DNA of 38,785 nucleotides from a virus. Every line of letters begins with the position of its first letter. Within the stretch, counting starts at the first letter, position 1. A program made the position numbers and the translations under genes. Location: positions 1 through 38,785 of the IMG/VR virus record IMGVR_UViG_3300042864_002261. One strand, 5' to 3'. Positions 1 through 35,501 of the stretch are shown here, piece after piece. Below the pieces are notes generated by a model that saw nothing but the letters and a program-made list of their open reading frames with translations, ran no database searches and was not told where the DNA came from.

Positions 1-1024
1 CAGCATCATGCATTACTTTATCTTTCTGTTGGTTAGCTAAATCAGTTAAGGCTTTATCGTATTTAGATGAAGTTCTGTGTTTATGTAATTTTTGTGCATA
101 AATCTTAACCACTTCTTCTAAAAATTCCTTTGAACTATTATACTTAAAATTTGGTAAATCGTATGTACCAGTTTTTTCAAGAGTTCTGGCAAACCCTAAG
201 ATCCCATTACAAATTTGTTCCAATGAAAGTTCAGAAACATCTATTCCAGGATGCTCATTTAAATATTCATCAATAACAATTTCTCGTTTTGTTCCAGCAA
301 ATTCATCAACGAATTCGGCAAGATGCAGGATAAATTTAGAAAAATCTCTTGTAATAATTTTTTCCTCAACGTCTTTGCGCATATTAGGTCCAACTAATTC
401 TCCATTTTTAATTTTAGCAACTACTCCACGATCAGTAACTGATACATCTAGTGCATTGCCAAATGATTGATATAGAAATCCTACAACAAAACCTTTTAGT
501 CCTCTAATTGGAGTATATCGAGCTTTTGCCCATTGCGCTGAATAAGTAAAGGTTGGAATAATATCAACTTGAACAGGTCCATCTTTTAAATTAATTACTA
601 ATTTAAGACTACCGTCAGAAATTGCATCGCTCTCTTCTGCATCAATTTCAGGCTGTGGATTTTCTTGAATCCATTTTAACATAAGCTGATTGTACTCTTT
701 CATAGTATCAATTTCAACTCTTCTGGATTGAGGCTCAGTTAGTGGATATTCAACTAAAATATCAACATCACCATATGCTTTTTCTGGATTTTCAGCAAGG
801 TCCTGTTTATAATAAACGCCAGATCCGCCTGGACCAAGAACTTTTAATGGAGCCATTTCTAAAGACTCTGCATATTGATTAAATTTAGAAAAAATATTTT
901 CTAAGACTGACACTGACTCTTCCAATACGGCCGGTGTAATTTTAGTCCCCTGAGTTTTAGTGGTTGCCCAACCTCCCATTTCCTGTATTTTTAAAAATCC
1001 CTGAAAAGATTCAATAATTCTCAC
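1..1024 (-). CDS. Nucleotidyltransferase-like protein with capsid-targeting-like N-terminus (3' end outside window)
   Basis: An open frame of 341 codons runs off the left edge of the window. The start is a GTG at 1024, chosen because it gives the N-terminus MRIIESFQGFLKIQE, which matches the peptide shared by several other proteins here, and because a late-promoter motif lies just upstream. Residues 64-69 (GPGGSG) and 85-88 (GDVD, followed by ILV) look like the GS...DxD signature of the polymerase-beta nucleotidyltransferase fold. VQVDI at about 151-155 could supply the third carboxylate. The substrate is unknown; similar phage proteins are usually annotated only as nucleotidyltransferases. 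It is probably delivered in the capsid (inference). A second protein of this type is encoded at 34698-35501. Fold call moderate, function unknown. Confidence 0.6.
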   Translation of the reverse strand, partial: MRIIESFQGFLKIQEMGGWATTKTQGTKITPAVLEESVSVLENIFSKFNQYAESLEMAPLKVLGPGGSGVYYKQDLAENPEKAYGDVDILVEYPLTEPQSRRVEIDTMKEYNQLMLKWIQENPQPEIDAEESDAISDGSLKLVINLKDGPVQVDIIPTFTYSAQWAKARYTPIRGLKGFVVGFLYQSFGNALDVSVTDRGVVAKIKNGELVGPNMRKDVEEKIITRDFSKFILHLAEFVDEFAGTKREIVIDEYLNEHPGIDVSELSLEQICNGILGFARTLEKTGTYDLPNFKYNSSKEFLEEVVKIYAQKLHKHRTSSKYDKALTDLANQQKDKVMHDA

Positions 1025-1042
1025 AATAAATTGATGATTTTA

Positions 1043-1052
1043 GTTATTTATC
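1043..1052 (-). promoter_or_regulatory. T4-like late promoter motif
   Basis: The minus strand reads GATAAATAAC, ending about 20 nt before the GTG at 1024 and overlapping the stop codon of the upstream gene. It matches the motif repeated before most virion genes in this window and resembles the T4 late promoter TATAAATA. Confidence 0.5.
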
Positions 1053-1601
1053 GAAACCTAGTTTCTTTAGCTCTGCAATTGTTTCCTTGGCACTAGTGTG
1101 TAAAATACCAGTCCCTCCAGCTGCAACCCAGGCATCCAATTTTTTTGGAGTATCATCAATTAAGATATCACCAGGCCCAGTTGCAAATTCAAATTTATTA
1201 CCATAAAAAATTGTTCTTTCTTTACCAGTCCAATCTTCCCTTTTTGTAATATAGGGAAAGTCCCAATTTAAATTTTTCTTTAGCCATTTAGCTTTACCTG
1301 TAATTGACTTTGGATCAAGAGATGGTGATGATAAAATAGTAGGACTGTATTTTTGGATAAAACTCCAAAGATCAATTCCATCTGGCATCCATTCCATATT
1401 TGCCCAAAATGCCTCACCAGCTTTTCCAACAAGTTTCCAACTTGCGTTTTTTGAATTTTCCTTTTGGAATTGTTCAATAGGCATTCCCGCCTCTCTTTCA
1501 AACTGTGAATCCCAATCCGAAAGTACTCCATCCATATCGCAAAAAATTCGCATAGGCTGAACACTCTCAGTAAATAGTGTGTATGGTTTAATGTGCTGCA
1601 T
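1044..1601 (-). CDS. HAD-superfamily 5'(3')-deoxyribonucleotidase-like phosphatase, putatively packaged
   Basis: 185 aa. After a 16-residue leader the protein reads MRIFCDMDGVLSDWD. This is HAD motif I, with nucleophile D22 and acid/base D24, in the form seen in 5'(3')-deoxyribonucleotidases. Near the C-terminus, ILIDDTPKKL is the acidic motif IV. The family dephosphorylates nucleoside monophosphates and could act in nucleotide salvage. The frame stays open up to 1649, but the ATG at 1601 is preferred: it lies 7 nt after the mutM-like stop and yields MQHIKPYTLFTESVQ, which resembles the capsid-targeting-like peptides of other genes here. An internal start at residue 17 (MRIFCD) would give the bare enzyme, so the leader could also be untranslated. 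Family confident, substrate inferred. Confidence 0.8.
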   Translation of the reverse strand: MQHIKPYTLFTESVQPMRIFCDMDGVLSDWDSQFEREAGMPIEQFQKENSKNASWKLVGKAGEAFWANMEWMPDGIDLWSFIQKYSPTILSSPSLDPKSITGKAKWLKKNLNWDFPYITKREDWTGKERTIFYGNKFEFATGPGDILIDDTPKKLDAWVAAGGTGILHTSAKETIAELKKLGFDK

Positions 1602-1608
1602 ATAATAT

Positions 1609-2409: not shown

Positions 2410-2422
2410 ATCTTTCTTTTTT

Positions 2423-2433: not shown

Positions 2434-2442
2434 CAATCCGCG

Positions 2443-2454: not shown

Positions 2455-2475
2455 TACAAAATAGATCTATTTAAA

Positions 2476-2904
2476 ATGATTTACAATTTCAAAGATTTCG
2501 TTACTAAGGTTGACGAAAACGTAAACTCAGCAGAGTTTTTAAACAAATTTGGCTTGACTGAAGAAGAAGATGCTGCGGCTGCTGATGCTCCAGTTGAAGA
2601 CGATATGCCTAAAGAAGATGAGGCTCCATCTGAAGATGAAGCATTAGAAGCTTTCAAAAAAGAACACCTTGATGTAATGTTCAATGAACTTTCATCTGAT
2701 GATTTCGATTCATTTTACTCTAGCGAATTTAAAGAGTGGAAAGAAATGGAAGATGGTGAAGAAAAAGAAGCTAAGAAAGAAGAAATCCTTAACAAAATCA
2801 AGGATATGTTCCAATTAAGCACTGAAGAAAAAGAAGAGGCTCCAGCTGAAGACGAAGATGCACCAGCTGACGAACCTGCTGCTGAAGAAGCTCCAGAAGC
2901 ATAA
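2476..2904 (+). CDS. Acidic Glu/Asp/Ala-rich protein with capsid-targeting-like N-terminus
   Basis: 142 aa, extremely rich in E, D and A. The first residues, MIYNFKDFVTKVDE, match the peptide shared by the putative packaged proteins. Two acidic low-complexity stretches (about residues 28-55 and 95-142, the latter with repeated APAEDE/AEEAPE units) flank a central helical segment around LDVMFNELSSDDFDSFY. No enzyme motif is visible. A small acidic, low-complexity protein with such a leader would suit a prohead core component or an internal head protein, like the small acidic core proteins of T4, but this is inference from composition. It is first in a plus-strand group of three and has its own late-type promoter. 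Confidence 0.75.
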   Translation: MIYNFKDFVTKVDENVNSAEFLNKFGLTEEEDAAAADAPVEDDMPKEDEAPSEDEALEAFKKEHLDVMFNELSSDDFDSFYSSEFKEWKEMEDGEEKEAKKEEILNKIKDMFQLSTEEKEEAPAEDEDAPADEPAAEEAPEA

Positions 2905-2917
2905 TTAAATTTTTCCT

Positions 2918-9622: not shown

Positions 9623-10105
9623 CTATTCGATAGTTTCAATCAAACGCTGAGCAATTATCTGTTGAGAACGGGATAATTTATCAATAGCTTCTTGAATTGG
9701 AATAAATCCAGCCCAATCTACCTCTTCGGCTTGTAGTTGTTCTTTAGGTACTTTCGGCGAAGCAAGGCCAATTTGTTCAAGACTCTCAATGTATACCTCA
9801 AAATAAGCGCAGCGAGAGTGAGGAATACCGCGACGGTAAAATACAAAATATTTCTCATTTTTATCAATTAGTTCTGGATTTACCGTAACCCCGGTCTCTT
9901 CTCTAGTTTCACGAATTGCACAAGTTAGAAGATCTTCGCCTGGTTCAATTCCGCCTTTGGGAATTCCAAACGGTTGATTCTTCCAACTTGCGTTCGATGG
10001 ATGAATTAATAAAAGTTTTCCTTCCCAGATAATAGCTAGGCCGGCCGCTCTAATTTCAAGCTGCTTTTCGCTTTCTGCTAAATAATCTGTGAATGTAAAA
10101 ATCAT
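9623..10105 (-). CDS. Nudix hydrolase with capsid-targeting-like N-terminus
   Basis: 160 aa. The Nudix box spans residues 51-73, reading GGIEPGE, seven residues, then RETREETGV. It fits GX5EX7REUXEEXGU. The leader MIFTFTDYLAESEKQ lies before the Nudix fold and resembles the shared peptide of putative packaged proteins, with LAE as a possible cleavage site. The box identifies hydrolysis of nucleoside diphosphate-linked compounds, but the substrate (oxidised dNTP, NADH, ADP-ribose, RNA cap or other) cannot be read from it. If packaged, it would act at once on entry. The start overlaps the bS21 stop by 4 nt (ATGA), so the two are translationally coupled. Confidence 0.88.
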   Translation of the reverse strand: MIFTFTDYLAESEKQLEIRAAGLAIIWEGKLLLIHPSNASWKNQPFGIPKGGIEPGEDLLTCAIRETREETGVTVNPELIDKNEKYFVFYRRGIPHSRCAYFEVYIESLEQIGLASPKVPKEQLQAEEVDWAGFIPIQEAIDKLSRSQQIIAQRLIETIE

Positions 10106-10297: not shown

Positions 10298-11542
10298 TTA
10301 TGATAATTCTAACATTTTCTTAGCGCCATCTGAAATAGTTCCTCTTAGTGCAGCGCTAAATAATTGTACAATTTTTCCTGCTTCTGGGGAATCTACTTCA
10401 TCTGCAATCGCAGCATCTACTCCAAGCTTTGTATCAATAATACCAAGCGTTTGTAAGTCTTTCCAAGCAGTTTCAACATTTAATAATCCCTTTGGAGTTA
10501 ATACCATAACTGCCATAATTGCATTAACTTCTTCATCAGCAGAAACCCAACTATCATCAATTATTGACCAAATTGTTTCTGCCCATTTTTTAGCATCATC
10601 TCCAACTGGTTCATATGAAACCAATGAATTTGCAGAAGGGACTTTGCTTTTTAAATATTGTGTGTCCTCATCACCTTCCGACGCCCAATCTGGATTCCAA
10701 TTCAAGATTCTATCCATTACTCGACCGGCAGGTTTTCCACCAATGAATGGAGCATATCCAAAATCTCCCCAAGTCCATGCATCCATTTCCGCGTATGTAC
10801 TAGCTGCATCTTGTGTAAACATATCCCAATAGTCATCTTTACCAAATGCTGCGACTAAGAATTTTTTTGCAGCGTCTGCATTTAGATTATTCTGAATAAT
10901 CCAGTATATTGCAGCTTCGGTTGCATTATGCACAACATCTTCATTTGAGTTTGACCAATAGTTAGCATTTGCTCTAATTGCAGCCGAAACTGTTTGAGCA
11001 ACACTTTTTTCCTTATCGGCCGCACTTGTACTCGATGGCAAGTTTGATTTTGGCTGTTTAGTAGTCGGATCGATTGCAAATTTTCCAGATGCAATATCAA
11101 TAACTTCAGATATTTTACCATCTGTACTTTTTGTCGTAATCTCTTTATCAGTTATTGAATAAGTTCCAGAATAGGCGACCTTTCCGCTTCCATCATTAAT
11201 ATAAACGACTACCGTTAGAGGTTTTGATCTAAAATTATATGAGCGACCTGCTGATAAAATATCAATGCTTACGCCATTTTCCTTTTCAGGTTTTTCTTCA
11301 GTAGCATTGTATACACTAGCTAGCCTAGTGTTAGGCATCTTTAGAAGTTTATCCATGATTGCTTGATCTGGCGCAGTCGTAGCAACAGCAGGCGGTGGAG
11401 TTTCCGTTGTAGGGTCTTCTTTAATTGTAGTAAGCTTAGGATTAGTATTAGTAGCAGGAGGGGTCTTTGTTGCATTAACACCACGTCCGCCTGAACCATC
11501 TTGTTCATTAATAAAATCCTTAAATGTTTTAATAACTCGCAT
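10298..11542 (-). CDS. Putative packaged internal virion protein (414 aa), function unknown
   Basis: The N-terminus MRVIKTFKDFINEQ is the closest match here to the T4 capsid-targeting peptide MKTYQEFIAE, with INE as the expected (L/I)xE cleavage site. A Pro/Thr/Ala-rich linker follows (about 20-62), then a small beta-rich part (about 75-150) and a helical C-terminal half. That half contains NATEAAIYWIIQNN and SADEEVNAIMAVMVLTPKGL, which loosely recall helical repeats of annexin type; I do not trust this enough to name a domain. No catalytic motif is seen. With the next two genes it forms a block of large proteins probably carried in the head. Confidence 0.75.
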   Translation of the reverse strand: MRVIKTFKDFINEQDGSGGRGVNATKTPPATNTNPKLTTIKEDPTTETPPPAVATTAPDQAIMDKLLKMPNTRLASVYNATEEKPEKENGVSIDILSAGRSYNFRSKPLTVVVYINDGSGKVAYSGTYSITDKEITTKSTDGKISEVIDIASGKFAIDPTTKQPKSNLPSSTSAADKEKSVAQTVSAAIRANANYWSNSNEDVVHNATEAAIYWIIQNNLNADAAKKFLVAAFGKDDYWDMFTQDAASTYAEMDAWTWGDFGYAPFIGGKPAGRVMDRILNWNPDWASEGDEDTQYLKSKVPSANSLVSYEPVGDDAKKWAETIWSIIDDSWVSADEEVNAIMAVMVLTPKGLLNVETAWKDLQTLGIIDTKLGVDAAIADEVDSPEAGKIVQLFSAALRGTISDGAKKMLELS

Positions 11543-11560: not shown

Positions 11561-11570
11561 TATTTATTAA
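11561..11570 (-). promoter_or_regulatory. T4-like late promoter motif
   Basis: The minus strand reads TTAATAAATA, about 20 nt upstream of the ATG at 11542, overlapping the stop codon of the preceding gene. Confidence 0.45.
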
Positions 11571-12913
11571 ATTGTTGCTTTTTGTAGAGATTGTTCAATT
11601 TCAGTTTTAACTGCATCATTAAAACTTCCACCATTTTTTATACCAAATAGGTATGAACAAATATCCTTAAATCCTTGTGAATTGTAGGATTTTCCATGTT
11701 CAAATGGACCTTTTTTGGAAATAGCATCAAGACAATTTTGATAGACGTTGCCACCCATAATAGATTTTAACATATCTCTAACGCCAGAATCTGTAGCTAA
11801 ATCAAATTTATTACCGGGATTTGGGAAATCTGCTGGAAATCTAGCTATAACACCAGATGCAATTTTTAATAGATCTGCTTCATTTTTAATTGATGTATCA
11901 GAGGTTGTAGTTTGATTAACTGGATTAACTACAGGAGCAACTGTTCCACCAGCTTCAGCTAATGCTACCTTTAACGGCTTTTCAACTAAAGTTGGAACAA
12001 CTTCATTTTCAATATTAGATTGAACTATACGTTTGGCATTTAGACAAATAATAATCCACGCTTCAACCATAGTTTTAAATAATCCACTAGAAAGTTCTGA
12101 CGTATTGGGCGCTGCATAATTACTATCATACTTTCCAGCCATGCTAATAAGCTTAGCAATCATTGAGCTCAAATCAGTTGTATATTGAGTTGGATTACCT
12201 GGAACACCAAGCGAAAAATCTGCAGGTGGCAAACTTACCATAAAGCTCCAAAAAATTGGAGAAATTTTTCCAGTTTGATTAACCAATTGAGTTTGTCCAC
12301 CAATTGATTGTAGTATAGGTTTAATATAAACCTGGTGAACAAACTGGCGATACCAATCAGATGCCGTTCCATCTATATCCAAGAAATATGAAGCAGTTAT
12401 TGCAGCAGATTGATTCGATCCAGCAGTTGAGCTTGTAGTTTGTGTAGATGGTGTAGATTTTGCATAATACTGTGATGCATCTTCTGATGACATTGCAAAA
12501 GCAAAATGATCTTCGATCTTTGGTAAGTGCTTATCTTTTGGGATAAGTGCTATATCAATCTTTCCAGGTTTAAATAGAAAAATACTACCTGAGGTTTCAG
12601 CTAAATCTTTACCAAACATTCTATTGTTTTGAGTATTACCGGGTTTTTGGAATATTCCAAGTACTGTATCTTTTCCACTCTCATCAAGCGTATCTAGTAG
12701 AGAATCTGTGGTTTTATGTTCTAGTGACTTTATTGCATTTGCAAAATTTTCAACATTACCTAAAAGCTGATTATCTTGTGGCCAACTGTATTGATATGTC
12801 CATTTAACTAAAATTTCGTCAGTTGGTGAAGATTGCGAACCAGTTATTTTAATCTTAGTTTTAGAAAAGTCAAATTTCTCAAACAGATTTGATAGTTTAT
12901 AAAGTTTTTTCAT
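11567..12913 (-). CDS. Large protein of unknown function, possible packaged virion protein (448 aa)
   Basis: Starts MKKLYKLSNLFEKFDFSK. This weakly resembles the shared leader (LFE could serve as the protease site) but is less convincing than its neighbours. A Ser/Thr/Gln-rich linker at about 155-170 separates an N-terminal beta-rich region from a larger mixed domain beginning YFLDIDGTASDWYRQFVHQVY. That segment recalls a HAD-like DxDGT start, but the remaining HAD motifs are not evident. I do not recognise the family. It sits 6 nt after the 858-aa protein and shares its orientation and probable late expression. Confidence 0.7.
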   Translation of the reverse strand: MKKLYKLSNLFEKFDFSKTKIKITGSQSSPTDEILVKWTYQYSWPQDNQLLGNVENFANAIKSLEHKTTDSLLDTLDESGKDTVLGIFQKPGNTQNNRMFGKDLAETSGSIFLFKPGKIDIALIPKDKHLPKIEDHFAFAMSSEDASQYYAKSTPSTQTTSSTAGSNQSAAITASYFLDIDGTASDWYRQFVHQVYIKPILQSIGGQTQLVNQTGKISPIFWSFMVSLPPADFSLGVPGNPTQYTTDLSSMIAKLISMAGKYDSNYAAPNTSELSSGLFKTMVEAWIIICLNAKRIVQSNIENEVVPTLVEKPLKVALAEAGGTVAPVVNPVNQTTTSDTSIKNEADLLKIASGVIARFPADFPNPGNKFDLATDSGVRDMLKSIMGGNVYQNCLDAISKKGPFEHGKSYNSQGFKDICSYLFGIKNGGSFNDAVKTEIEQSLQKATI

Positions 12914-12919: not shown

Positions 12920-15496
12920 TTAGTACATCATTTTCAATAAATCTTCCTTAGTAACTCCCATACCAAAGAAATCTGGAGTATAGGTTGGATTTTTATCCAA
13001 TTTAGCAAGTTCGCGTTTAATTCGATCTGCTTCGTATGGAGATGGATAAAAACTAATTGCACCAGTTGTTATAGTATTACCAACCGTACGTTTATAATTA
13101 GTTTCATAGCTAGATAAAGATTTTTTAACATCGCTCTTTACATCTGCATATGAAACATCATTTACTGTAATTGCACCAAGTAGATACCATAAACCTCCAT
13201 AGGTAATATCTTCTTCTATTCTAGCCTCTGCAACTTCAATTGGAGTTGCATCAGCCGGTAATTTTACCAACATACCAGCAGATGAAATAACTGGAGAAAT
13301 TCCAACTGCAGCTAAAGTACCGTCTACTTCTTCTTGATTTCTGATCGAAGCTTCGCTAGAAGCACCAGCTGCTGCAAATGTTTCCCTTGGTCCAGCTTTA
13401 GCCAATGCGCTATCTGAAGGTGGAAATGATGCAGTTAATGCAAGATCATCTGCTATTTTATTAATGTGACTTTTACATACATCAACATAGCTTAAAGGTC
13501 CAAGCACCGCATTTCTTTTTCCAGTAGGTTTAGCCTTTAGGTCATTAAGCTGTTGGTCTAATTCAGAAGATACTGAATTTTCTTTAGCGTCAATAGGTTC
13601 AGCTGCGTCTTGTTCCATTAAAAACTTTGGTCTAGATAAAATAAATTTGTAAGATTCATTTTTTGGAAGAGCCCCTGGTGAAAACTTCATAAGTAAAGCT
13701 TCAAGACCTCCAACATTACCTTGACCAAGATCTGCAATCGGGCAACGCATAGGTGCGCCGATTAAGTTTTTTAATATAATAAGTTTATTTCTAAATACTC
13801 TAGCTGCTCTAATAGATTGTGACCACTTTCCTCCAATTTTTGCAATATCATCAAAGTGTTTAATTGCAGCTTGACCGGATTTGGCAATATCTACATATAC
13901 TTCTGGATTTTTTGCAAGTAGTCTATACATGCCAACTACACCTGGACCAGCTTCTTCTAATTTAGCAAGGGTTTTAGGATTTGCTAAAATACCATTAAAG
14001 AACTTACTTAATTTTGCTGGATCGTCTGAAATTTCAGTAATTAATCTAGCACTAAAGTGTGCGCCCTTTGTTGTTGCAATTTCAGCAGCATTTCCAGTTA
14101 ATCTAACTAAGTCTTCTGCTGGAATATCATCAAGTTTTTTTACTCCAGCAAATAGCATTTCTGCTTTACGGCCTTCTATCCAAAGAGGCTTCATTTCCTT
14201 TAATTTAACAATATCTTCTGCTGTAACTGGTACACCTTTAACCTGTTTAACTTCAGTCCAAGCTTTAACATAATCATCATAGCCAGCACTCAATGCCTTT
14301 TCAATTGTTTTTGCATCTTTCTTAAGAAGGTCATCTGCAATTTTAACATTTGCATCTAGCACATCAATTAAGCGGCCATTCTTTACAAATTGACCTGCTC
14401 CAGGCAATCCCTTTTCAATTCTAGTTTGAAGAATTCCTTCTAATCTTGTTACTTCAGCAGTATTTCCTGCAGCTTTGGCTGCAGTCAATTCATCTCCTAA
14501 TTTAGTAATTAAACCTGCATTCGCATCTACTACCTTTGATGCATCGCCAGCTTTGATTGCAGCGGTAATATCATCTGATCCTTTTGATATTAAATTAATA
14601 TCATCAATTGCTGAATCTAAGTTTTTAGTGATTGGTGTAATTGCACTATCTAACCAAGCACCTAATTTCTTTCCAAGACCGCCAAATACAATACTAACTG
14701 GCCAAGTTCTAAGAATTGCTTCAAAGAAACGTCCAACTGCTTTTGCAATTGCAACAAACATAGATGCAACTGGCTTAGCAACTTTCATAATCTCCATAAA
14801 TTTAGATAAGGTATCTGGGGATTCTTTTGCTAAAGCTTTTACTAAACCTTTATCAGCCTTTCCAGTCTTAAATGCAACCTCAGCAATTTTATTAATTTTG
14901 CTAAAGCCCTTTCCTAATTTTATCGTTTTTGCAAGATCTCCAATTCCAGGAATAACTGCAGCGATTGTACTAATTAAAGCTGAGCCGTATTGTCCTTCGA
15001 ACAAATACATTATTGCGTTAAGTCCATCAAATACCATACCGGCAGTTAATGGTGGAACGATTGGTATATCAAATAATCCAAGTATATCTAAAAGTAAATG
15101 GATAATTCCAGAAGGGGAACCATCTTCAGTTAGAGCATTCCAAATAGAACGTAGACTATCAAAAAAGTCTTCATTAACTGAATAATATTGATCAAGTACT
15201 GACTCAATTTTAAAATTTGATTCGGTGAATAGCGTTACCCCGCTTGTTCCCATTGCATATAAAATATGCTCTAATTTAGATTCTTCGGTAAAGCCAGCTG
15301 ACTCTAACTCAGAAGAGTATTTTTGGGAGTTTTCAATAAACTCATCAGAAACTGATTCTGGCAAAACCGGTTGGATTTTGTCCAGCATTTCCATTAGGTC
15401 TGCACCAATTTCATTTAGAAATTCAAGTGCTGGATTTGCAAAAGTTGATTCATTAATTAGAAACTGATCTCTGCTTAAAATATATTTTGATGCCAT
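12920..15496 (-). CDS. Giant putative ejected internal protein (858 aa) with membrane-active segment and two targeting-like peptides
   Basis: Begins MASKYILSRDQFLINES, a capsid-targeting-like leader with INE as cleavage site. Residues about 130-195 are hydrophobic and glycine/proline-punctuated (LLLDILGLFDIPIV, GLNAIMYLFEGQYGSALIS, AAVIPGIGDLAKT). They resemble the membrane-associated pre-toxin-like segment of polymorphic toxins and large phage internal proteins. Residues 200-600 are Ala/Lys/Asp-rich helices. At 615-629, SYKFILSRPKFLMEQ closely repeats the N-terminal leader, followed by an acidic linker and a separate 225-residue C-terminal domain. I infer a head-packaged protein processed at both sites and possibly inserted into the envelope during ejection. 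No catalytic motif was identified. Confidence 0.8.
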   Translation of the reverse strand: MASKYILSRDQFLINESTFANPALEFLNEIGADLMEMLDKIQPVLPESVSDEFIENSQKYSSELESAGFTEESKLEHILYAMGTSGVTLFTESNFKIESVLDQYYSVNEDFFDSLRSIWNALTEDGSPSGIIHLLLDILGLFDIPIVPPLTAGMVFDGLNAIMYLFEGQYGSALISTIAAVIPGIGDLAKTIKLGKGFSKINKIAEVAFKTGKADKGLVKALAKESPDTLSKFMEIMKVAKPVASMFVAIAKAVGRFFEAILRTWPVSIVFGGLGKKLGAWLDSAITPITKNLDSAIDDINLISKGSDDITAAIKAGDASKVVDANAGLITKLGDELTAAKAAGNTAEVTRLEGILQTRIEKGLPGAGQFVKNGRLIDVLDANVKIADDLLKKDAKTIEKALSAGYDDYVKAWTEVKQVKGVPVTAEDIVKLKEMKPLWIEGRKAEMLFAGVKKLDDIPAEDLVRLTGNAAEIATTKGAHFSARLITEISDDPAKLSKFFNGILANPKTLAKLEEAGPGVVGMYRLLAKNPEVYVDIAKSGQAAIKHFDDIAKIGGKWSQSIRAARVFRNKLIILKNLIGAPMRCPIADLGQGNVGGLEALLMKFSPGALPKNESYKFILSRPKFLMEQDAAEPIDAKENSVSSELDQQLNDLKAKPTGKRNAVLGPLSYVDVCKSHINKIADDLALTASFPPSDSALAKAGPRETFAAAGASSEASIRNQEEVDGTLAAVGISPVISSAGMLVKLPADATPIEVAEARIEEDITYGGLWYLLGAITVNDVSYADVKSDVKKSLSSYETNYKRTVGNTITTGAISFYPSPYEADRIKRELAKLDKNPTYTPDFFGMGVTKEDLLKMMY

Positions 15497-19313: not shown

Positions 19314-21764
19314 TTATTCCATAGTTAAGCTATTTGCCATCTTATTATGGGAGATTGCTCTTTCTACAACATATGTATGGGCATCTTCTACTTCAATTTT
19401 TATTACTTCGGCCTCTCCAATTGATTCGATTGATGAAATTTCAACCAAGCCATCCAAAGTTTCAATTAGGTCTCCTACTGCAAGATCAGAAATTCTAACG
19501 TATTCCTCATCTACTGTTAAGAATTTATGACTTTCTGATACATCAACTGAGTGCTCTCCAAATTTAACTCTAACAACTGGCTGAATAATAGGTTCAGCTG
19601 ATTCAATCGCATAGTAACCCCATTCTCCAGTATGTTCGTGAATTGTATAGATTTGAGTACCTTTTACCAATTCGCCAGCTTTGATCCAAGAGTCTTCTCC
19701 AGTTAAAATTAGCATGCTTGGAACTGGGCAACCTCCACCATAACCTCCACCTGAACCGCCATATGCACCAGTTGAACCATATCCACTGCTGTATACTGGG
19801 CGAGTAAGTTTAACTGGATTGTCAGTTGCAGCAACATCTCTAATTGAATTAGCTGATGCCGAAACTGTTGCTTGAACAGTTGATGCTTTTAAGTTTGTAT
19901 TTTCAGCTTCAAGTTGAGATATTCTTTCCTTAAGTGATGTGATTGTATCTGCTAAATCTACCTGTTTTTTAGCATCAAGTAACTCAGCTGAATTATCATC
20001 GGCAGCTTTTGTAATATCATCAGATTTATACCATTTTCCAGTATAAAGCGCTGAACGGCTTCCATCCTTTCCTACCGTAACTATATAGAATTTAGGATCA
20101 TCTAAGCTTTGAATTTTAGCAGTAGTTGTTGCATCAACTTTAAAAAGTATTTCACCAAGATCTGAATTAACTTGATCTTGACTTGTAATATTGCTTATGC
20201 TTATCTTAGATGCAGCTGAGCCAAATACTAATTCAAACCCACTAAATTGAGTTAGATCCATGTTATTTAGCTTAGTTGTTCCTTGATTAGTAGTAGATTC
20301 AGTTTTTACCTGAAACTTAAATGTATTATCAAATGGAGTTACCGCAATTGATAACTTACCTTGACCAAATGCAAGATCTAGCTTTTTACCAGATCTAACT
20401 AAGTGATTGACTTGAGAAACTGCAATTGTATTTTGTGTGTAAAAAACTGGAACGTATTGAGTAACGGTATTAGTTATTACAGTTGGCTCAACGGTTGGCG
20501 TAGTTATTGCAGTCGCAGTTGATGCAGCAGGTCTAACCATTGAAGGATCACTAAATACCTGAACAGAATCAGTTAATTTCTTTACTATTATATTAGAAAT
20601 TTTATATGAATTTGGTTTATCTGCAAGATCCAATTTAAGTAAAGATTTACCATACTTATTTGGATTAACTATTGTAAGAGATGCAGTTCTAATAATTTGT
20701 TCGTTTGTTACTCTATTTACAAGTCTAACTGAATAGTCGACTACCATTGTAACAGCTTCATTTGCATTTTTAAGAATAGGTCTAAAAACTATAGGTTCAT
20801 CGAAATTAGTTTCTTGAAAGAATGTTGCATCTCCACTTTTAACAAAGGTTGATCCAATTTGTTCAAATATTGAAAGTTGGTGAAAAATTATCCAACTTTG
20901 ACCACTTCTTTTTTCTAAAATTCCAATAAATTCTTCTGGAAAACCCTGATTCCATGTTGCAAAAAATTCAAGATAATCTCCATCGACTGCTTCTCTAATT
21001 TTTGCTCCAACTAAATCAAAATCATTAGTTTGTGCAATTTGAGCATTGTAGGTACGGGTAATATCTAATGTTGTGTATAATTCGTCTTCAGTTTTTATAT
21101 CTGGTCCGAATGTACACTCAAATAAATTTATAGTAATAGGATTGTTTTTAACTAACCCTACTCCACCTGTTAATTGATATTCAAATGTATTTGCTTGATT
21201 TGGAGAAGTATAAAATGCCTCATCCATATTTTTTATTGATGGAATAATTATGTCAATATATCGGTCATACATCGTATTTCCAATAATAAATGGACGAGTT
21301 GTATAGAGTAAAATATCACCAATTGTTGTTGCATTTAACAAAATATTTGCTAGAATTAGTGTATTACCATCGTTCATATCTTGTCTAACTGACAGTGCCA
21401 TATTGGTAAAATCTGTAAACTGGAATCCTGATGCAATATAGAATCTTGCACGGTCTCCAATGATAGATCCTCCAGGTACAACTGTTTCAGTAAGAGTAGT
21501 ATCATACTCAGTATAGTTAGGACTATTTTCTGAGTCTAAATAAACAAACCTACCTCCATTGGTAGACAATGGGATAATAGTTAGGTCCTTGATATTACCG
21601 GTTTCATATAGTGCAGAATCTGGATTATACACAAATATTTCATTATCGCCAGTTTTTAATGTATAAAATGGCGAAGTTATTAGAATCGGACTTGATGGCG
21701 AAAGAGACTCATACTGATACTCTAATAGGCAATATTCCGTTAACTTAACAAATCTAGATTGCAT
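19314..21764 (-). CDS. Large tail/virion protein with C-terminal Hint (intein-like) autoprocessing domain
   Basis: 816 aa. Residues 1-590 are beta-rich with no domain I can name. A coiled coil (about 594-615, DTITSLKERISQLEAEN) and a Gly/Tyr/Ser-rich hinge (GYGSTGAYGGSGGGYGGG) follow. The last 138 residues form a Hint domain: it begins with C679 (CPVPSMLILTGEDSWIKAGEL), has the block-B-like VDVSESHKF, and ends with VEDAHTYVVERAISHN, where N807 is the expected cyclising Asn. The next residue is K808 rather than C/S/T, so cleavage rather than splicing is expected, as in bacterial intein-like domains. The neighbours are virion genes. Tail fibre or tip role inferred. Confidence 0.85.
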   Translation of the reverse strand: MQSRFVKLTEYCLLEYQYESLSPSSPILITSPFYTLKTGDNEIFVYNPDSALYETGNIKDLTIIPLSTNGGRFVYLDSENSPNYTEYDTTLTETVVPGGSIIGDRARFYIASGFQFTDFTNMALSVRQDMNDGNTLILANILLNATTIGDILLYTTRPFIIGNTMYDRYIDIIIPSIKNMDEAFYTSPNQANTFEYQLTGGVGLVKNNPITINLFECTFGPDIKTEDELYTTLDITRTYNAQIAQTNDFDLVGAKIREAVDGDYLEFFATWNQGFPEEFIGILEKRSGQSWIIFHQLSIFEQIGSTFVKSGDATFFQETNFDEPIVFRPILKNANEAVTMVVDYSVRLVNRVTNEQIIRTASLTIVNPNKYGKSLLKLDLADKPNSYKISNIIVKKLTDSVQVFSDPSMVRPAASTATAITTPTVEPTVITNTVTQYVPVFYTQNTIAVSQVNHLVRSGKKLDLAFGQGKLSIAVTPFDNTFKFQVKTESTTNQGTTKLNNMDLTQFSGFELVFGSAASKISISNITSQDQVNSDLGEILFKVDATTTAKIQSLDDPKFYIVTVGKDGSRSALYTGKWYKSDDITKAADDNSAELLDAKKQVDLADTITSLKERISQLEAENTNLKASTVQATVSASANSIRDVAATDNPVKLTRPVYSSGYGSTGAYGGSGGGYGGGCPVPSMLILTGEDSWIKAGELVKGTQIYTIHEHTGEWGYYAIESAEPIIQPVVRVKFGEHSVDVSESHKFLTVDEEYVRISDLAVGDLIETLDGLVEISSIESIGEAEVIKIEVEDAHTYVVERAISHNKMANSLTME

Positions 21765-24271: not shown

Positions 24272-24721
24272 CTAGTCTTGTATTAAGAACTGCATAAAAG
24301 TTTTTGTGTGGCCAGCCGATTCATTAACTGTCATTAGAGAAGCAGGATAAACCTCAACTCTTTTATTAGAAACTGAATCTCTAATAAAAGCCCTAATTAC
24401 TTGATGTTTTCTGTCTAATTCAAATCCAATAAATCTACCAAAGATTTTATTAGATCCGCCTTTTTGATGTTGAGTGTTTACTTCAACGCCGCTAAGTCTT
24501 TTTCCAGCTCTAAACTGATCGTTTAGGTCATTTACTAATTGATCAAATTCTGACATTTCAACTTCTTGTGGAAGAGAAAGATCCGCTAGCGGTAACATTT
24601 TAATTGTAATACCTGGAGTAAATGTGGATTGTGATGCAACAAATCCAAAATCGCCTCTTCCTTGAAATGGAATACTACTTACAAAACTACTCTTTTGTCC
24701 ATATGACATTACTGGTCTCAT
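24272..24721 (-). CDS. Probable virion protein of unknown function (149 aa)
   Basis: Starts MRPVMSYGQ at 24721, where TAATG joins it to the stop of the upstream gene. An alternative start two codons upstream would overlap more. It contains PGITIKMLPLADLSLPQEVEM and a beta-rich half with NKIFGRFIGFELDRKHQVIRAF and RVEVYPASLMTV. No transmembrane segment or catalytic motif. The family is not known to me. Coupling with the next gene suggests that the two proteins are produced in similar amounts and may interact. Confidence 0.65.
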   Translation of the reverse strand: MRPVMSYGQKSSFVSSIPFQGRGDFGFVASQSTFTPGITIKMLPLADLSLPQEVEMSEFDQLVNDLNDQFRAGKRLSGVEVNTQHQKGGSNKIFGRFIGFELDRKHQVIRAFIRDSVSNKRVEVYPASLMTVNESAGHTKTFMQFLIQD

Positions 24722-25509
24722 TAGCAATCACAATTATTTGGATCAACATCAGTTTTAGTCTTAATTAATAAGACACTAACTTTAACGCTGAATTTTGAGC
24801 TTGGATTTAATAGGGTTAGGGTGTTTATAATCTTAGTAGGATCAGTTGTTGCCTCTGGTGCAAAATACATATAAACCGGTCCGATTGTAAAGTTTGATGA
24901 GCTGTTTCCTCCATTTGTAAAAATCGATGAAATTGAACCAGTCAACATATATTCAGATGGATTAATTTCTGCGCCATCCTCATCTAGCGTTGGATAGTTT
25001 GCATAAATAATAACGCCCTTTATGTAAGCTTTATTTGGATTTAATACTTCAACAAAAGTTAAAACTGCAGCAGCATTGGCAGCAGTTGCAGGAAGAGATA
25101 GGGTTACAGCTGTTCCATTGACTGCAGTAACAGTTGTTCCAGTTTGAATACCTGAACCAGATACCGTGCTACCTACTCTAATTAAATTATTAACAGTTGC
25201 AGTAGTTACAGCAGTGCTATTTAAAACAGTAGCCGCTGTTGCGGTTGTTCCACCTACTAAATTATTTGAAAAAACTATTGCATTTTCGCCTTGACAAATT
25301 TCTAACTCTTGTTTAACATAAGAGTCTGCTGGATATGCAAGTTTACCGAAATCGCAAAGATCTGCTTGGCTAACATTTTTATCTACTATAGAAAAGCAGT
25401 TGTCAATAAGTCTAAGTGACTTTTTGGCAGCCACTGGATCGCATAGTTTAGCCATAGCCGAGTTAACTCTTTTATAGCTTGGATCACCTTTAAATTTAAT
25501 GTAGGACAT
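24721..25509 (-). CDS. Virion protein with a Thr/Ala-rich beta-domain insertion
   Basis: 262 aa. The flanks are unique (MSYIKFKGDPSYKRVNSAMAK at the N-terminus; SPSSKFSVKV-type beta strands at the C-terminus, ending NNCDC). The middle (about 85-155) is a Thr/Ala/Val-rich repeat-like domain containing LIRVGSTVSGSGIQTGTTVTAV. This VxGSGIxxGTTV pattern is common in structural and adhesin proteins of environmental phages and looks like an inserted beta module. A late-like promoter lies upstream. Specific virion role unknown. Confidence 0.7.
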   Translation of the reverse strand: MSYIKFKGDPSYKRVNSAMAKLCDPVAAKKSLRLIDNCFSIVDKNVSQADLCDFGKLAYPADSYVKQELEICQGENAIVFSNNLVGGTTATAATVLNSTAVTTATVNNLIRVGSTVSGSGIQTGTTVTAVNGTAVTLSLPATAANAAAVLTFVEVLNPNKAYIKGVIIYANYPTLDEDGAEINPSEYMLTGSISSIFTNGGNSSSNFTIGPVYMYFAPEATTDPTKIINTLTLLNPSSKFSVKVSVLLIKTKTDVDPNNCDC

Positions 25510-28731: not shown

Positions 28732-30690
28732 TTAATTTTTTTGATCTCCATAAAATCCAGATAATACCTGTTTATATGAATCTAAATAAGTTTCATCAAA
28801 TACTTGTCTTTGTCCAGGTTTCTTCATTTGTGGAGTATCGTTTAGATAACCTACTAAATCTGAGGTAATCTTGGACGAGCCTTCGCCCTGGGTTGAATTT
28901 AGAATAGTCTCCATTACAATCTTTTTGTATTCTTCACTAGTCCTGTCCCAAACATCAGTTCCCAACTCTAAAAAACTTGGGGAATCGAAAAATGCAGCAG
29001 TGTTAACGCAAGTCATTGCCAAGTCATCATTACCACTTTGACTTCGATATGTACCATTAGTTGATCGACCAAAGGATCCTAGTTCCATTACTGTTTTACT
29101 TTCATTTGGTAGAATCTTGTTTACATTAACGTGATACTTAAATCTTTCGCAAAATTTAATTTTATTAGTAACGCTTAATTTAAGTCCAGGTTTAAGTAAT
29201 TTAGTTGCTTCCGTATGTTTAGAATGTATTAATTGTCCTGGCCAATATTGATCATTATTTGAAATCTTATCTAAAATAAAGTCGCCTTTGTGGTTTAACT
29301 CAATTAAGACCTTAAGATTTTCAAAATTAAAAAGTCTATAGACTAAATATTCTAGAACTTGAGCATATTCATTAATAGTTTGTTTATTACTTCTCCAAGT
29401 TGCAACTTGTACAAGTGAAATACAATCTAATTCAGATTTAATTAAGTTTTTAATTGGCTCAAGAGTTTTTATTGGAAGAGCTACTGCTTTAAAGATATTA
29501 ATAACCGAAAAGTCTTTACCTGTTCCATCCGCAGTATCTACTGAAAATACATATTGATCTGGGGAATTTCTAAAATCTTGCTCATCCCAATCCTTTAAAT
29601 TAGGGTGAACTGTAAAGTTTCCTTCCATTAGAGCAAGTACCTCTGGGTCCCAGTTAATATTAAGAGGTTCTTCGTATTTTGTTGCAATGCTAAAGATTTT
29701 CTTAAGATCCTTTGATGATAATAAAAGGCGATCTGATGAAAAGAACTGTAATCCATATTCCTGATTAAAATCTTCTTCAGATCCCATATTAGCAATAGTT
29801 TCAGCTTTCCACTTGTCATCTCTACCTGGAACCTGCCACCAATCTACTCTTAATGGAGTATAGGTATTTAGTCCATTTAAGGCATCCATATAGATTTCAT
29901 AGAATCGGTTCATTCCATTTGGAGTTGAGGTAATAATAATCTTAGAAGTCGTGGATGCTGAAATAGTAGGATAGATTGCTCGATAAAAGAAATCTAGATA
30001 TGCTGGTGAAATGTGAGCAAACTCATCAATGTATAGCAGGTGAATAGTAAAACCGATACCTGTATTTTTGGTTGTAGTACGACCAATTAATCTGCAGCCA
30101 TTATCGAACTTCATCGACATTACGTTATTGGAAATACAGCCAGGTTTTAGGAAAAACGGTAGATTTTCAAAAATAGATTTAATTTTGTCCACAACCTCTT
30201 TGGTAGTAGATGCAATATTGGCAACAGCTAGAACATTTTTATCAGTATGGAAAATAAGATACCATGCAACAAAAACACCGGACATTACAGTTTTACCAAT
30301 TTGACGACTTGCCATTAAGATATTAAAACGATTTGCACCAAATGCTCGGATAATTTCCTCTTGATAATCTCTTAAGATAATTTGTTCAACTCCATATTCA
30401 GTTAAAACCTGTGCATACTTATTTGCAAAATAACCAACATCAGATTTGCACCTCTTAATTTCTTCAAGTTCTTCTGGAGTATATTCAAATACTAAATTTG
30501 GTTTTTTCCAAGCTGGATCATTATCCTTAAATGGTGAATTTTTGATAGTTTTAATATCAATTAATCCATTTTCAAAATCAGCAAGTAATTGGTCGATCTT
30601 TTTGGTAGTCCAAACTGCACTATTTTCAGTATCATCCATTTTGGATATCTGTACGCTGGTCCTACCGCCTTTTGATAGAAAGTCTTTCAT
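28732..30690 (-). CDS. Terminase large subunit (T4 gp17-like)
   Basis: 652 aa. The ATPase domain has a Walker A variant MASRQIGKT (126-134), Walker B LLYIDEFAH (218-226) and the coupling motif TSTPNG (255-260). The nuclease domain starts at VFSVDTADGTGKDFSV (metal-binding D385). It continues with LIELNHKGDFI and ends with GNDDLAMTC, giving the three acidic clusters of the RNase H-like headful nuclease. It packages the phage genome into proheads by ATP hydrolysis and cuts concatemers. The likely small subunit is encoded 2 nt upstream, and gp6 and phoH are close by, an order plausible for a T4-type module. Confidence 0.96.
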   Translation of the reverse strand: MKDFLSKGGRTSVQISKMDDTENSAVWTTKKIDQLLADFENGLIDIKTIKNSPFKDNDPAWKKPNLVFEYTPEELEEIKRCKSDVGYFANKYAQVLTEYGVEQIILRDYQEEIIRAFGANRFNILMASRQIGKTVMSGVFVAWYLIFHTDKNVLAVANIASTTKEVVDKIKSIFENLPFFLKPGCISNNVMSMKFDNGCRLIGRTTTKNTGIGFTIHLLYIDEFAHISPAYLDFFYRAIYPTISASTTSKIIITSTPNGMNRFYEIYMDALNGLNTYTPLRVDWWQVPGRDDKWKAETIANMGSEEDFNQEYGLQFFSSDRLLLSSKDLKKIFSIATKYEEPLNINWDPEVLALMEGNFTVHPNLKDWDEQDFRNSPDQYVFSVDTADGTGKDFSVINIFKAVALPIKTLEPIKNLIKSELDCISLVQVATWRSNKQTINEYAQVLEYLVYRLFNFENLKVLIELNHKGDFILDKISNNDQYWPGQLIHSKHTEATKLLKPGLKLSVTNKIKFCERFKYHVNVNKILPNESKTVMELGSFGRSTNGTYRSQSGNDDLAMTCVNTAAFFDSPSFLELGTDVWDRTSEEYKKIVMETILNSTQGEGSSKITSDLVGYLNDTPQMKKPGQRQVFDETYLDSYKQVLSGFYGDQKN

Positions 30691-33338: not shown

Positions 33339-33357
33339 CTTGGCGAATTCTTTTTTG

Positions 33358-33369
33358 TTATTTATTAGG
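33358..33369 (-). promoter_or_regulatory. T4-like late promoter motif
   Basis: The minus strand reads CTAATAAATAAC followed by A6, 20-31 nt upstream of the gp6 ATG. Strong copy. Confidence 0.6.
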
Positions 33370-33431
33370 GATAATTGAACTTTGGAAAAAATTTACCTTC
33401 GCTCCAGACCAAATAGATAATTCTTTAGTAT

Positions 33432-33437
33432 TATACT
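33432..33437 (+). promoter_or_regulatory. Predicted -10 element of the tmRNA promoter
   Basis: TATACT at 33432-33437 lies in AGTATTATACTAG, nine bases before the mature tmRNA 5' end (33447). That is a plausible distance to a transcription start without long 5' processing. It belongs to the GTATAATA-type class used by non-structural genes. The 33339-33446 gap otherwise holds only the gp6 late promoter on the other strand. Confidence 0.4.
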
Positions 33438-33446
33438 AGAAAATAT

Positions 33447-33914
33447 GGGGCTGTTTTGGCATTTGACAAGCGGTCGTAGTTCTTTGAATGCAGGCGGAGT
33501 TAGTATCGGAAACTCCTTAATCCTCTATACACACAATAACTGACAATAAGTCAACTTGGACTTTCGAAGACGCAATGTCTTTCGTAGGTGCTGATTTAGC
33601 AGTAGCTGCCTAATCGCTCCCGTACCACTCATGGGACTTTAAGAAGAAGTGGAAGCAAAATCCAGGTGGCTCCCTTAACAGTCAAGGCTGACCTTGAGCA
33701 TCTGATCGTAGTCGATCTATACAGGGGGCGAAAGAGTTGGAGTGACAGGTCAGAGCTCTACAAAATAACTCTGAGACCAGGTTGTTTGAAAGTTTGGTTC
33801 CCACATACATCAAACTTTATATTTTGTCCTTTTAGAAAAAATGGACTAAGCCTGTAAATGAATTCATTGAAGTAGCCGAATTGGACACGGGTTCGACTCC
33901 CGTCAGCTCCACCA
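33447..33914 (+). ncRNA. ssrA: Transfer-messenger RNA (tmRNA)
   Basis: 468 nt. The 5' end GGGGCTG pairs with the 3' CAGCTCC to form an alanine-type acceptor stem with the G3-U wobble, then discriminator A and CCA. The T arm is ACGGG-TTCGACT-CCCGT. 5' elements include TTTTGGCATTTGACAAG and the hairpin GGAGTT/AACTCC. The resume site AATAACT followed by GAC at 33542 aligns with flavobacterial tmRNAs as I remember them (AACT before GGC). It opens a 23-codon tag (33542-33610) that begins DNKSTW and ends GADLAVAA, then TAA at 33611-33613. The RNA is longer than typical (350-400 nt) and has an extra AAAGTTTG/CAAACTTT hairpin near 33789-33818. No protein gene fits in this stretch. Confidence 0.95.
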
Positions 33915-33933
33915 CTGTAGTATTTTTCTAGGT

Positions 33934-33944
33934 GAATAAATAAC
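33934..33944 (+). promoter_or_regulatory. T4-like late promoter motif (plus strand)
   Basis: GAATAAATAAC, 5-15 nt upstream of the ATG at 33949. Same core as the minus-strand copies, correctly oriented for this plus-strand gene. Confidence 0.5.
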
Positions 33945-33948
33945 CTAT

Positions 33949-34701
33949 ATGAAGAATACAAATACACAGGACATCTTTTTACGTAATCTTACAATCTCTT
34001 TATTGGATCTATTAAATAGACAATTAGAGATTGAGATGTGGAGAGATGATCGCCCAGAAATACATACTATTCCATTCTATTTTAATCAGGGAACTGACGA
34101 AGGCTTTATGCAAGATTTTTTCATTGGTATTCCACCAAGCTGCAAAATTTCGCAAATGGCTGAAGGTAATTATGACCCGATTCCAAGAGGAATTATTACC
34201 TTAAGTTCATTTAATGTAAAATCTTCAGATCTTGTTAATAAGTACGTTAGAGGAACTTTTCAACGCGATGAGTTTGATGAAAATGATGCAAAGAAGAGCA
34301 AAGCTTATTCGGCTAGACTCTATTCTTTACCACTTAAGGTAAATTTTGATGCAAAGATTATTGTTGATAATCTTAATAAAACATTTAAAGCAACTGAAAA
34401 GTTATTTGACCTTTTCTATAGCAATCGTGTAATGTATTTCCAATATAGAGGAATTCGAATCCCTGCGTTATTTGTTTTTCCAGATCAAGCAACTAATGAT
34501 AAAGCCTATAAATTTTCCTATACTGACAATAATAAAATAACTATTACATTTCAAATTGAAATCGAAACTTACTTTCCAAGCTTTGATAAAACTACTGAGA
34601 TGTTTAGAGGAAATGTTATTGATCAAATATTAATAAAAACAATTGACAATGAATCTGGCCAACTGGATGGTAAAAGCTGGATAGATAATACTGAATCATG
34701 A
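33949..34701 (+). CDS. Tail terminator / sheath-stabiliser, T4 gp15-like
   Basis: 250 aa. FLRNLTISLLDLLNRQLEIEMW opens the protein, then the central IPRGIITLSSFNVKSSDLVNK, a block SARLYSLPLKVNFDAKIIVDN, FYSNRVMYFQYRGIRIPALFVF, and TFQIEIETYFPSFDKTTEMFRG at the C-terminus. The order of PRI/VxL, ARLYSIPxxVxF, R-IE-W-like LTFxI segments and the size resemble the gp15 tail completion family of T4-type phages. It is in an opposite-strand island with the nucleotidyltransferase, which overlaps its end (ATGA). The gp15 call is tentative. Confidence 0.55.
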   Translation: MKNTNTQDIFLRNLTISLLDLLNRQLEIEMWRDDRPEIHTIPFYFNQGTDEGFMQDFFIGIPPSCKISQMAEGNYDPIPRGIITLSSFNVKSSDLVNKYVRGTFQRDEFDENDAKKSKAYSARLYSLPLKVNFDAKIIVDNLNKTFKATEKLFDLFYSNRVMYFQYRGIRIPALFVFPDQATNDKAYKFSYTDNNKITITFQIEIETYFPSFDKTTEMFRGNVIDQILIKTIDNESGQLDGKSWIDNTES

Positions 34702-35501
34702 AATACCTATTAGAATATAAGAATTTTGTTCTTAGTGAAGGTGGAAATGCCTTTCCTGAAACAGTCTCTGTTAAAAGAGAAGATATTCAAAGAATCGTTA
34801 AAGAGTTTAATGATAGGGTAGTCCAGGGAATACTCGGAAGCCAGCCTGGTGAACCAATTGGTAGCTGGAAACAGAAACCTATTTCAGGTGATATTGATTG
34901 CCTGGTGTACACAGATTTAGAACTTCCTAAAATTGTAGAATTATGTAAAGCTCAAGGAATTGATGCAAAGGCTTTCTATGGTTTTAATATTGTTTCAACT
35001 AATTTTACCCCAACTGATCATGAGCCTGTGCAGATTGATATTTTCGTAAGACCTGAAACTGCAAATAAAGAAGCTACTGATATTTTCTATAAGAATATTG
35101 AAGAGGATCTTGATACAACTAAACACCGCGTCTATTTCCTATTTACAATTCTTGATTCCCGAAAAGAAGATATTGAAGGCGACTCTACACAACCTTCTAA
35201 ATTTACAGGTTATATGCTAAGACCAGATGGTCTCTATAAGATTGTTAAAGAGATGAAGAAGGTTAATTATAAAATTATGGATCGCCAGTTAATTGCCGAA
35301 TCTGCTGAAGATATGGCAAAGGCAATTTTTGGAGAAGCCCTACCATTTAGTGAATGGAATACTTTTAAGAAAACTTTTGATCTTTTCATGAAGTCTCCAC
35401 TATATCCAAATAAACAGGAGATTGTAATGGCTTATATCGAGAAATTAAAAGAAGAAGGTCTACCTTTTCCAAAGAGTGTTATACTCGATTCTTACGTTTA
35501 A
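34698..35501 (+). CDS. Polymerase-beta-type nucleotidyltransferase with capsid-targeting-like N-terminus
   Basis: 267 aa. Starts MKYLLEYKNFVLSEGG, matching the shared leader (LSE as cleavage site). G55-S56 and SGDIDCLV (D65 and D67) form the GS...DxD catalytic signature of the nucleotidyltransferase fold, and VQIDIFV (D114) supplies the third carboxylate. The C-terminal helical half is unknown. Substrate unknown: RNA-tailing, protein or small-molecule transfer are all possible. It partners by architecture with the truncated gene at the window's left edge. Both are probably packaged. It overlaps the upstream stop by 4 nt and converges with the tube gene, whose stop it overlaps by 4 bp. Confidence 0.75.
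   Translation: MKYLLEYKNFVLSEGGNAFPETVSVKREDIQRIVKEFNDRVVQGILGSQPGEPIGSWKQKPISGDIDCLVYTDLELPKIVELCKAQGIDAKAFYGFNIVSTNFTPTDHEPVQIDIFVRPETANKEATDIFYKNIEEDLDTTKHRVYFLFTILDSRKEDIEGDSTQPSKFTGYMLRPDGLYKIVKEMKKVNYKIMDRQLIAESAEDMAKAIFGEALPFSEWNTFKKTFDLFMKSPLYPNKQEIVMAYIEKLKEEGLPFPKSVILDSYV

Follow-up and report, generated by a model that had tools for sequence, protein, structure and literature searches.

Internal proteins IPI, IPII and IPIII of bacteriophage T4 and its Alt protein carry on otherwise unrelated bodies a short N-terminal leader, the capsid-targeting sequence (CTS), which is cut by gp21. The T4 leader, taken here from the T4 record, is MKTYQEFIAE, and the available text of the mapping work assigns residues 4 and 7 chiefly to targeting and residues 8 and 10 to processing (PMC9026906). 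N-terminal capsid targeting of unrelated proteins is already known, and the available parts of the literature describe use of the tag for finding internal proteins of T-even phages (PMC9026906, PMC12373910, PMC9391042). According to the accessible text of two further papers, an N-terminal signal likewise loads DarB into the head of phage P1 (PMC9024508), and the large Salmonella phage SPN3US has head proteins with propeptides that are removed by a prohead protease (PMC7411985). Here we describe a leader of the T4 kind in the 38,785-base virus record IMGVR_UViG_3300042864_002261, a fragment of a T4-type phage (its whole length is called the window below), and in the relatives of this phage. Overall, these data are probably best explained by a removable head-targeting leader that is carried by many unrelated proteins.

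The leader has the consensus MxxIKxFxxFxxE, and nothing is conserved beyond it in an alignment of 119 leader proteins (7 of 126 were dropped, four of them under 60 amino acids (aa) and three crossing the borders of the fetched sequence). The four mapped T4 positions are preserved, with aromatics at the places of Y4 and F7 and with [ILV] and E at 8 and 10. In addition, 112 of 122 leaders have I, L or V six positions ahead of the central aromatic, in a column that the search pattern left free, and 61 of the 122 have K five positions ahead of it. With a strict T4-derived pattern, [FY]xx[FYW][ILV]xE, all seven phages with a repeat scaffold (see below) that were read at genome scale are enriched in N-terminal matches (p 2e-8 to 9e-19), with 8 to 22 leaders each. 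The near twin of the window, G002 (216,815-base record, locus L006), has 14 among 263 genes where 0.96 are expected, and a more distant relative, G005 (252,618-base record, locus L009), has 15 among 294 (0.85 expected); the corresponding values are 19 of 311 (1.13) for G006, 8 of 154 (0.44) for G007, 22 of 590 (1.46) for G008, 16 of 574 (1.77) for LR745206 and 19 of 546 (2.05) for LR756500. Many of the LR756500 leaders differ little from MKYIxEYEEFLLE, with 23 Y..F pairs against 0.8 expected. Profiles gave the same result across genomes: at a threshold of 12 bits, one trained on G002 picked out 16 of the 295 genes of G005, where 0.83 are expected, and in the opposite direction the count was 16 of 264 (0.43 expected).

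The strict pattern follows the residues mapped in T4; a first version also allowed H, F and W, and counts were made both ways. Genes are our own greedy calls of the longest open reading frame (ORF), uncurated. Some genomes were read in part (LR745206, LR756500 and G008 over 400 kb, G006 over 260, Atu_ph07 over 200 and T4 over 160 kb), and the scaffold ORF was left out of leader counts, body-family clustering and column statistics. Expected counts derive from internal spans of the same proteins; because N-termini differ from such spans in composition, other phages served as a second control. By the strict pattern none of eight (T4, PAU, PTm1, MaF61, immuto, ACG-2014f, Melnitz-3 and Atu_ph07) is enriched at p<0.001, T4 itself having 4 matches in 256 genes where 0.75 are expected (p 0.007, or p 0.025 in the other version of the pattern). 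Around 80 scaffold loci, 48 of 1402 genes have a leader against 3.8 expected, scaffold ORF excluded; 36 of these loci, many of them near-duplicates, have a leader gene, with 32 distinct leaders. Strict leaders are also present in 5 of 47 genes over 41 kb of LR756501, and in none of 59 genes over 40 kb of Lak-A1, in which the protease is present without repeats.

The bodies behind the leader are diverse. When the sequences that follow the leader are compared by blastp, the 126 leader proteins that a wider pattern finds in the seven phages fall into 100 body families, 82 of them singletons. A minority of the bodies have a Pfam or PHROGs label (labels come from the 25 commonest of 51 families in each), including leucine-rich repeats, Nudix (one SMODS-associated), CHAP, GH108 and lysozyme-type domains, adenylate kinase, polynucleotide kinase 3′ phosphatase, RimK-type ATP-grasp, a DUF2201 metallopeptidase, VWA domains, HNH and primase-like domains; part of these named bodies may sit on false leaders. 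Sequence comparison indicates that the leader is a module added to the bodies. In Atu_ph07, Olmo, XacN1 and L296 the first residues of the deoxyribonucleotidase already belong to its domain; the enzyme bears a leader in the window (MQHIKPYTLFTES), in G005 (MLKNFSQFITE) and in G006 (MLKKFKQFVNE), and its N-terminus is extended in other ways in immuto, HTVC008M and Melnitz. At the position of ORF 10298-11542 in the window, G002 has a similar leader on a 201-aa protein for which neither blastp nor phmmer detects homology to the 414-aa window body at E 0.001. The neighbours of this slot are retained between the two phages, two on one side at 91-95% identity and one on the other at 31%, and the alignments show one case in which cargo has been exchanged behind the leader. 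A separate observation concerns G002 165764-166483 (L020), which has a leader-like stretch, SRVLTFSSFLNEAK, inside the protein; a G005 homologue of the part behind this stretch, 176204-176659 (L031), starts with its own leader, and the G002 protein is possibly a fusion that keeps an internal cut.

The sequence-only reading had predicted a prohead protease gene elsewhere in the genome. No S77 prohead protease was found in the window, which is a fragment; the prediction was borne out in two of five relative records, G002 (50 bits) and G005 (37.3 bits, against a Pfam cut-off of 27), the other three being fragments. All of ten further records have the protease at E<=0.01, eight of them above the family cut-off. 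In G002 and G005 the protease gene lies directly upstream of the capsid gene and is fused to a long C-terminal part, which across 41 non-redundant copies consists of 6-15 tandem units with a period of 14 (404 of 427 spacings); three of 80 scaffold loci under 560 aa were dropped and near-duplicates removed, which left 41 of 77. The unit consensus, I-x-Y-S-E-Y-[LVI]-A-E-N-L, is a close fit to Y-Q-E-F-I-A-E of T4 and is conditional at its aromatic positions, as units were picked by a pattern that requires aromatics. The array also occurs in LR756500 (462 kb), LR745206 (635 kb), LR756504 (636 kb) and LR756501 (735 kb), and at least 538 relatives of it were found with a search pattern that was itself derived from the repeat.

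The scaffold is the protein richest in strict matches in G002, G005 and LR745206, with 9, 8 and 11 copies where the next best proteins have 3, 3 and 2. Because tandem copies are not independent matches, we relied instead on a reverse scan with a profile of the scaffold units. In this blind scan a 268-unit profile placed 38 of its 210 top windows at N-termini in seven repeat phages, against 10.6 expected, and 7 of 120 in four other phages, against 6.5 expected. The scan gives moderate support to the idea that the leader may be a detached scaffold unit. A structure model of the scaffold was not used (mean pLDDT 52.8; the repeats were drawn as two long helices).

The end of the leader resembles, in sequence, a motif in the capsid protein of the same phages. 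N precedes the E in 57 of 126 leaders, compared with 30 of 187 internal matches; the residue after the E is S or A in 54 of 126 and 21 of 187, respectively. Among 75 capsid-like genes beside the scaffold (from the 80 loci), 61 have [ILV]NE[AS] in residues 36-80, and the remaining 14 have [ILV]FE[QNS] there. That part of the sequence-only reading which took the shared N-termini of the window for a T4-type capsid-targeting peptide is well supported by leader enrichment in seven of seven phages, by the S77 protease in relatives and by this capsid-like leader end. That the peptide is a capsid-targeting and cleavage leader is, on these comparisons, probable.

The window by itself shows the leader weakly, and the comparison with relatives makes the case. 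The strict pattern matches 2 of 51 window genes (0.06 expected), and a looser pattern closer to that of the sequence-only reading matches 6 of 51 (2.07 expected, p 0.02), some of these six being genes which that reading had not listed. All the N-termini that it did list are present in the window (Table 1); the protein at 1024 has a GTG start, and the one at 1601 begins at an in-frame Met within a longer ORF, 1044-1649. We scored the window with a profile of 69 leaders from four distant relatives, the window and G002 being excluded from training. Three of 50 genes reach p<0.01 (0.5 expected), and not all of the listed genes pass: of the eight proposed leaders two are strong, three moderate and two spacing variants with one residue more or fewer before the E, and MKKLYKLSNLFEKFD of ORF 11567-12913 is unsupported (null p 0.25).

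Table 1. Candidate leaders and the terminase gene of the window
Feature	Position	Strand	Evidence
Leader MRVIKTFKDFINE of ORF 10298-11542 (414 aa, body without assigned function)	11504..11542	-	22.2 bits, null p <1/5479; strong
Leader MIFTFTDYLAE of ORF 9623-10105 (Nudix hydrolase)	10073..10105	-	17.7 bits, null p 0.0009; strong
Leader MIYNFKDFVTKVDE of ORF 2476-2904 (142-aa acidic protein)	2476..2517	+	8.4 bits, null p 0.0057; kept in G002
Leader RIIESFQGFLKIQE (GTG start) of ORF 2-1024 (possible nucleotidyltransferase)	980..1024	-	null p 0.015; moderate
Leader MASKYILSRDQFLINE of ORF 12920-15496 (858 aa, body without assigned function)	15449..15496	-	null p 0.029; moderate; G002 version MASKYILSRDQFVINE
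Spacing-variant leader MKYLLEYKNFVLSE of ORF 34698-35501	34698..34739	+	null p 0.069
Spacing-variant leader MQHIKPYTLFTES of 5′-nucleotidase ORF 1044-1601	1563..1601	-	null p 0.13; phrog_2643 E 1.1e-29
Doubtful leader MKKLYKLSNLFE of ORF 11567-12913	12878..12913	-	null p 0.25
Terminase large subunit	28732..30690	-	phrog_5989 E 5.9e-48, phrog_2 E 3.9e-42; puts the fragment among T4-type phages

Several of the weaker candidates are conserved, in relatives that are mostly 88-100% identical and so give weak evidence alone. The leader of ORF 2-1024, which extends past the window end, is kept in 9 of 9 near relatives fetched and, with altered letters, upstream of the homologue in G005. All nine relatives keep that of ORF 34698-35501, even at 48% identity (G005; G002 has 92%), each match beginning at query residue 1, and that of ORF 1044-1601 is retained in 9 of 11. 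The exceptions are two relatives at 34-43% identity, L296, whose homologue begins at the domain, and L295, which the leader pattern does not match. As for the bodies, the Nudix label held (PF00293, E 1.8e-15, with the domain beginning at residue 20 of ORF 9623-10105), as did the 5′-nucleotidase label (phrog_2643); the nucleotidyltransferase proposed for ORF 34698-35501 was confirmed by no tool, phmmer against the Protein Data Bank (PDB) giving weak nitrilase rows only. The body of ORF 2-1024 has no match in Pfam, PHROGs, NCBIfam or PDB sequences, and Foldseek gave nothing at E<=0.001; the best 50 rows of VIA-align are, by their titles, pol-beta-type nucleotidyltransferases (Z 5.0-6.7), which is suggestive of the same function for this body. 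Near residue 620 of ORF 12920-15496 a second leader-like stretch, SYKFILSRPKFLMEQ, echoes the N-terminus of the protein; its G002 counterpart, KFILSRSQFLLEAE, scores 11.8 bits, and the window copy is not among the best internal scores. C-terminal copies were considered as a second targeting mode and set aside, with 22 found where 26.4 are expected and hence no enrichment, despite conserved instances at G002 168413 and G005 181288. The C-terminal end of window ORF 24272-24727, KTFMQFLIQD (KTFIQFLIQD in G002, KTFLEFVI in G005), resembles such a copy.

Based on the T4 precedent, the leader would act as follows. Because it resembles one scaffold unit, its aromatic part, [ILV]Kx[FY]xx[FYW], may dock the new protein on the prohead core. 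The protease fused to the scaffold would then cut after [ILV]xE in the leader, and likewise in the capsid protein, and would dice the scaffold after [LVI]AE, such that the cargo is freed in the head and the core is cleared; cargo that stays in the head with the DNA would enter the host at infection. According to the available parts of two papers, T4 offers a precedent for each step, namely docking, cutting, loss of the pieces, retention and delivery (PMC9026906, PMC12373910). We infer docking, cleavage, packaging and delivery in these phages by this analogy. Delivery of the leader proteins to the host, which the sequence-only reading predicted for a packaged set of effectors, appears rather likely, and mimicry of a scaffold unit by the leader has close to an even chance of being correct. 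The wider picture, in which the scaffold of this clade (217 to 735 kb) would be a string of capsid-targeting units, the leader one unit set loose, some 13 codons enough to make cargo and a large, ready-made enzyme set carried and open to exchange, is put forward tentatively, as slightly less probable than not.

The closest competitor accepts a protease-cut head tag and attributes its likeness to the scaffold units to the shared protease only, both ending in [ILV]xE; the leader would then bind a different protein of the core, or the inside of the capsid. This is quite possible, if somewhat short of even: leaders end like the capsid motif, with N before E, where scaffold units have A; residue-level covariation of leader and scaffold was not seen; and in PAU the leader differs and tandem repeats are missing. 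A shared protease explains less readily why two aromatics are equally spaced before the cut in leaders, scaffold units and the T4 targeting sequence, and why N-termini rank high with the unit profile in repeat phages but not in four controls. Alternatively, many leader proteins might, like gp67 and gp68 of T4, be parts of the prohead core that are cleaved into pieces and lost as the head matures, and would not be delivered. In G002 a leader protein of 117 aa is encoded next to the capsid gene (154089-) and resembles a core part, as does the acidic window protein of 142 aa. Some leader proteins may indeed be core components that get destroyed; as an account of many of them this is unlikely, since cargo is the better fit for bodies that are enzymes (Nudix, adenylate kinase, ATP-grasp, nucleotidase) and for a slot in which unrelated bodies have been exchanged.

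Two further explanations fare worse. The motif could address proteins elsewhere, such as the tail or a replication compartment, or reflect pressure at the translation start; the proposal is improbable given that the motif ends in a capsid-like cut motif, matches the mapped targeting sequence of T4 and is missing from T4-type phages of similar base composition, e.g. PTm1 and PAU. Chance likeness among lysine- and phenylalanine-rich N-termini draws on the window-only count of 6 against 2.07 and on the one cited leader that fails. Cross-validated profiles and seven enriched relatives exclude it for the clade as a whole and leave it very improbable as a general account, while single window genes may be false.

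A number of findings weigh against the removable head-targeting leader, or against its origin in the scaffold. The seven enriched phages are related and the controls are split from them by ancestry, so that they are not independent cases, and chance would account for about 12 of the 126 leaders (the sum of the wider-pattern expectations). Leaders are lacking within about 10 kb of 44 of the 80 scaffold loci and, by the strict pattern, from all 48 genes over 42 kb of LR756504, which has the repeats. The leader profile found only one scaffold unit per phage that scores at least 9 bits. The covariation sought between scaffold and leaders amounts to an H in the LR756500 scaffold and in one local leader, the other leaders of that phage having Y..F. 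Homology of the repeat array to T4 gp22 was not supported (hhalign probability 0.2, P 0.29), gp22 holding short look-alikes only, e.g. FLDHxAKEWLAEN, and faster evolution of leader genes was not significant (median identity x coverage 79 versus 89, p 0.13). No virion proteomics of this clade turned up in literature searches that were not aimed at proteomics alone.

Apart from the terminase gene, the window has T4-type baseplate wedge and tail tube genes. The baseplate wedge gene is separated from the following one by a phage-encoded tmRNA (33447-33914; Rfam RF00023, 97 bits; ARAGORN tag APVPLMGL). The 816-aa product of 19314-21764 has a weak Hint/intein-like domain at its C-terminal end; its G002 homologue lacks the domain there, and residues 679-808 match another place in G002 at 47%, which would suit a domain that is mobile between genes. 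The N-terminus of the protein, MQSRFVKLTEYCLLEYQ, resembles a leader, yet scores p 0.15 by the leader profile. The protease-scaffold is present on seven contigs of genome bins, and in three of these the match extends into the repeat part, at 56% identity in one with the bin label Bacteroidetes, 38% in one labelled SAR324 and 34% in one labelled Psychroflexus; the labels of the remaining four are Firmicutes, Gammaproteobacteria, Phycisphaerae and Neomarinimicrobiota. Based on the best bin match and on the named relatives PAU, PTm1 and MaF61, the host of the clade is probably a member of the Bacteroidota.

We take the leaders of this clade for a new version of the T4 internal-protein system, and a far larger one. 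Like the T4 leader, that of the clade has its aromatics at the Y4 and F7 positions and [ILV]xE at 8 to 10, in phages that encode an S77 protease. Clade phages have 8-22 leaders each, whereas T4 has four pattern matches, and clade bodies include enzymes; T4 has separate gp21 and gp22, whereas the clade protease is fused to a scaffold of tandem CTS-like units; and packaging in the clade is predicted from sequence. The other described systems differ further, in that the Dar N-termini have no consensus according to the P1 authors (available text of PMC9024508), and a short shared leader of the clade kind is not described in the available text on SPN3US (PMC7411985). Phage PAU has a recurrent leader of its own, MKT[LI]xxL[YF]E[AS] (loci L045-L055), KT.....E occurring in 18 of 295 genes where 0.94 are expected, and five of these leaders sit around its protease gene. 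The consensus is different and the PAU scaffold region lacks tandem repeats; by sequence this appears to be a comparable code, either independent or diverged, and, with little searching aimed at it, we know of no report on it. In the titles and abstract starts of open-licence literature we found no report of such leaders in Bacteroidota or huge phages and none of a scaffold made of CTS-like units. In the available text of the huge-phage paper PMC7162821 the word prohead is absent, and N-terminal passages concern ribosomal protein S21.

The scale of the leader set and a scaffold built of a similar motif both go beyond the sequence-only reading. If the proposed system is correct, it would provide a sequence rule for recognizing injected proteins of uncultured large phages, most of whose genes are unlabelled, by reading the first ~13 residues. 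The 126 proteins of seven phages, most of them without a family name, would become candidate factors for takeover of the host in the first minute of infection or for anti-defence, and the leader could serve as a simple tag with which proteins are loaded into the heads of other phages. Moreover, the binding partner of the T4 CTS would be explained if the CTS is a copy of the scaffold's own contact motif, and an old question about T4 would become testable.

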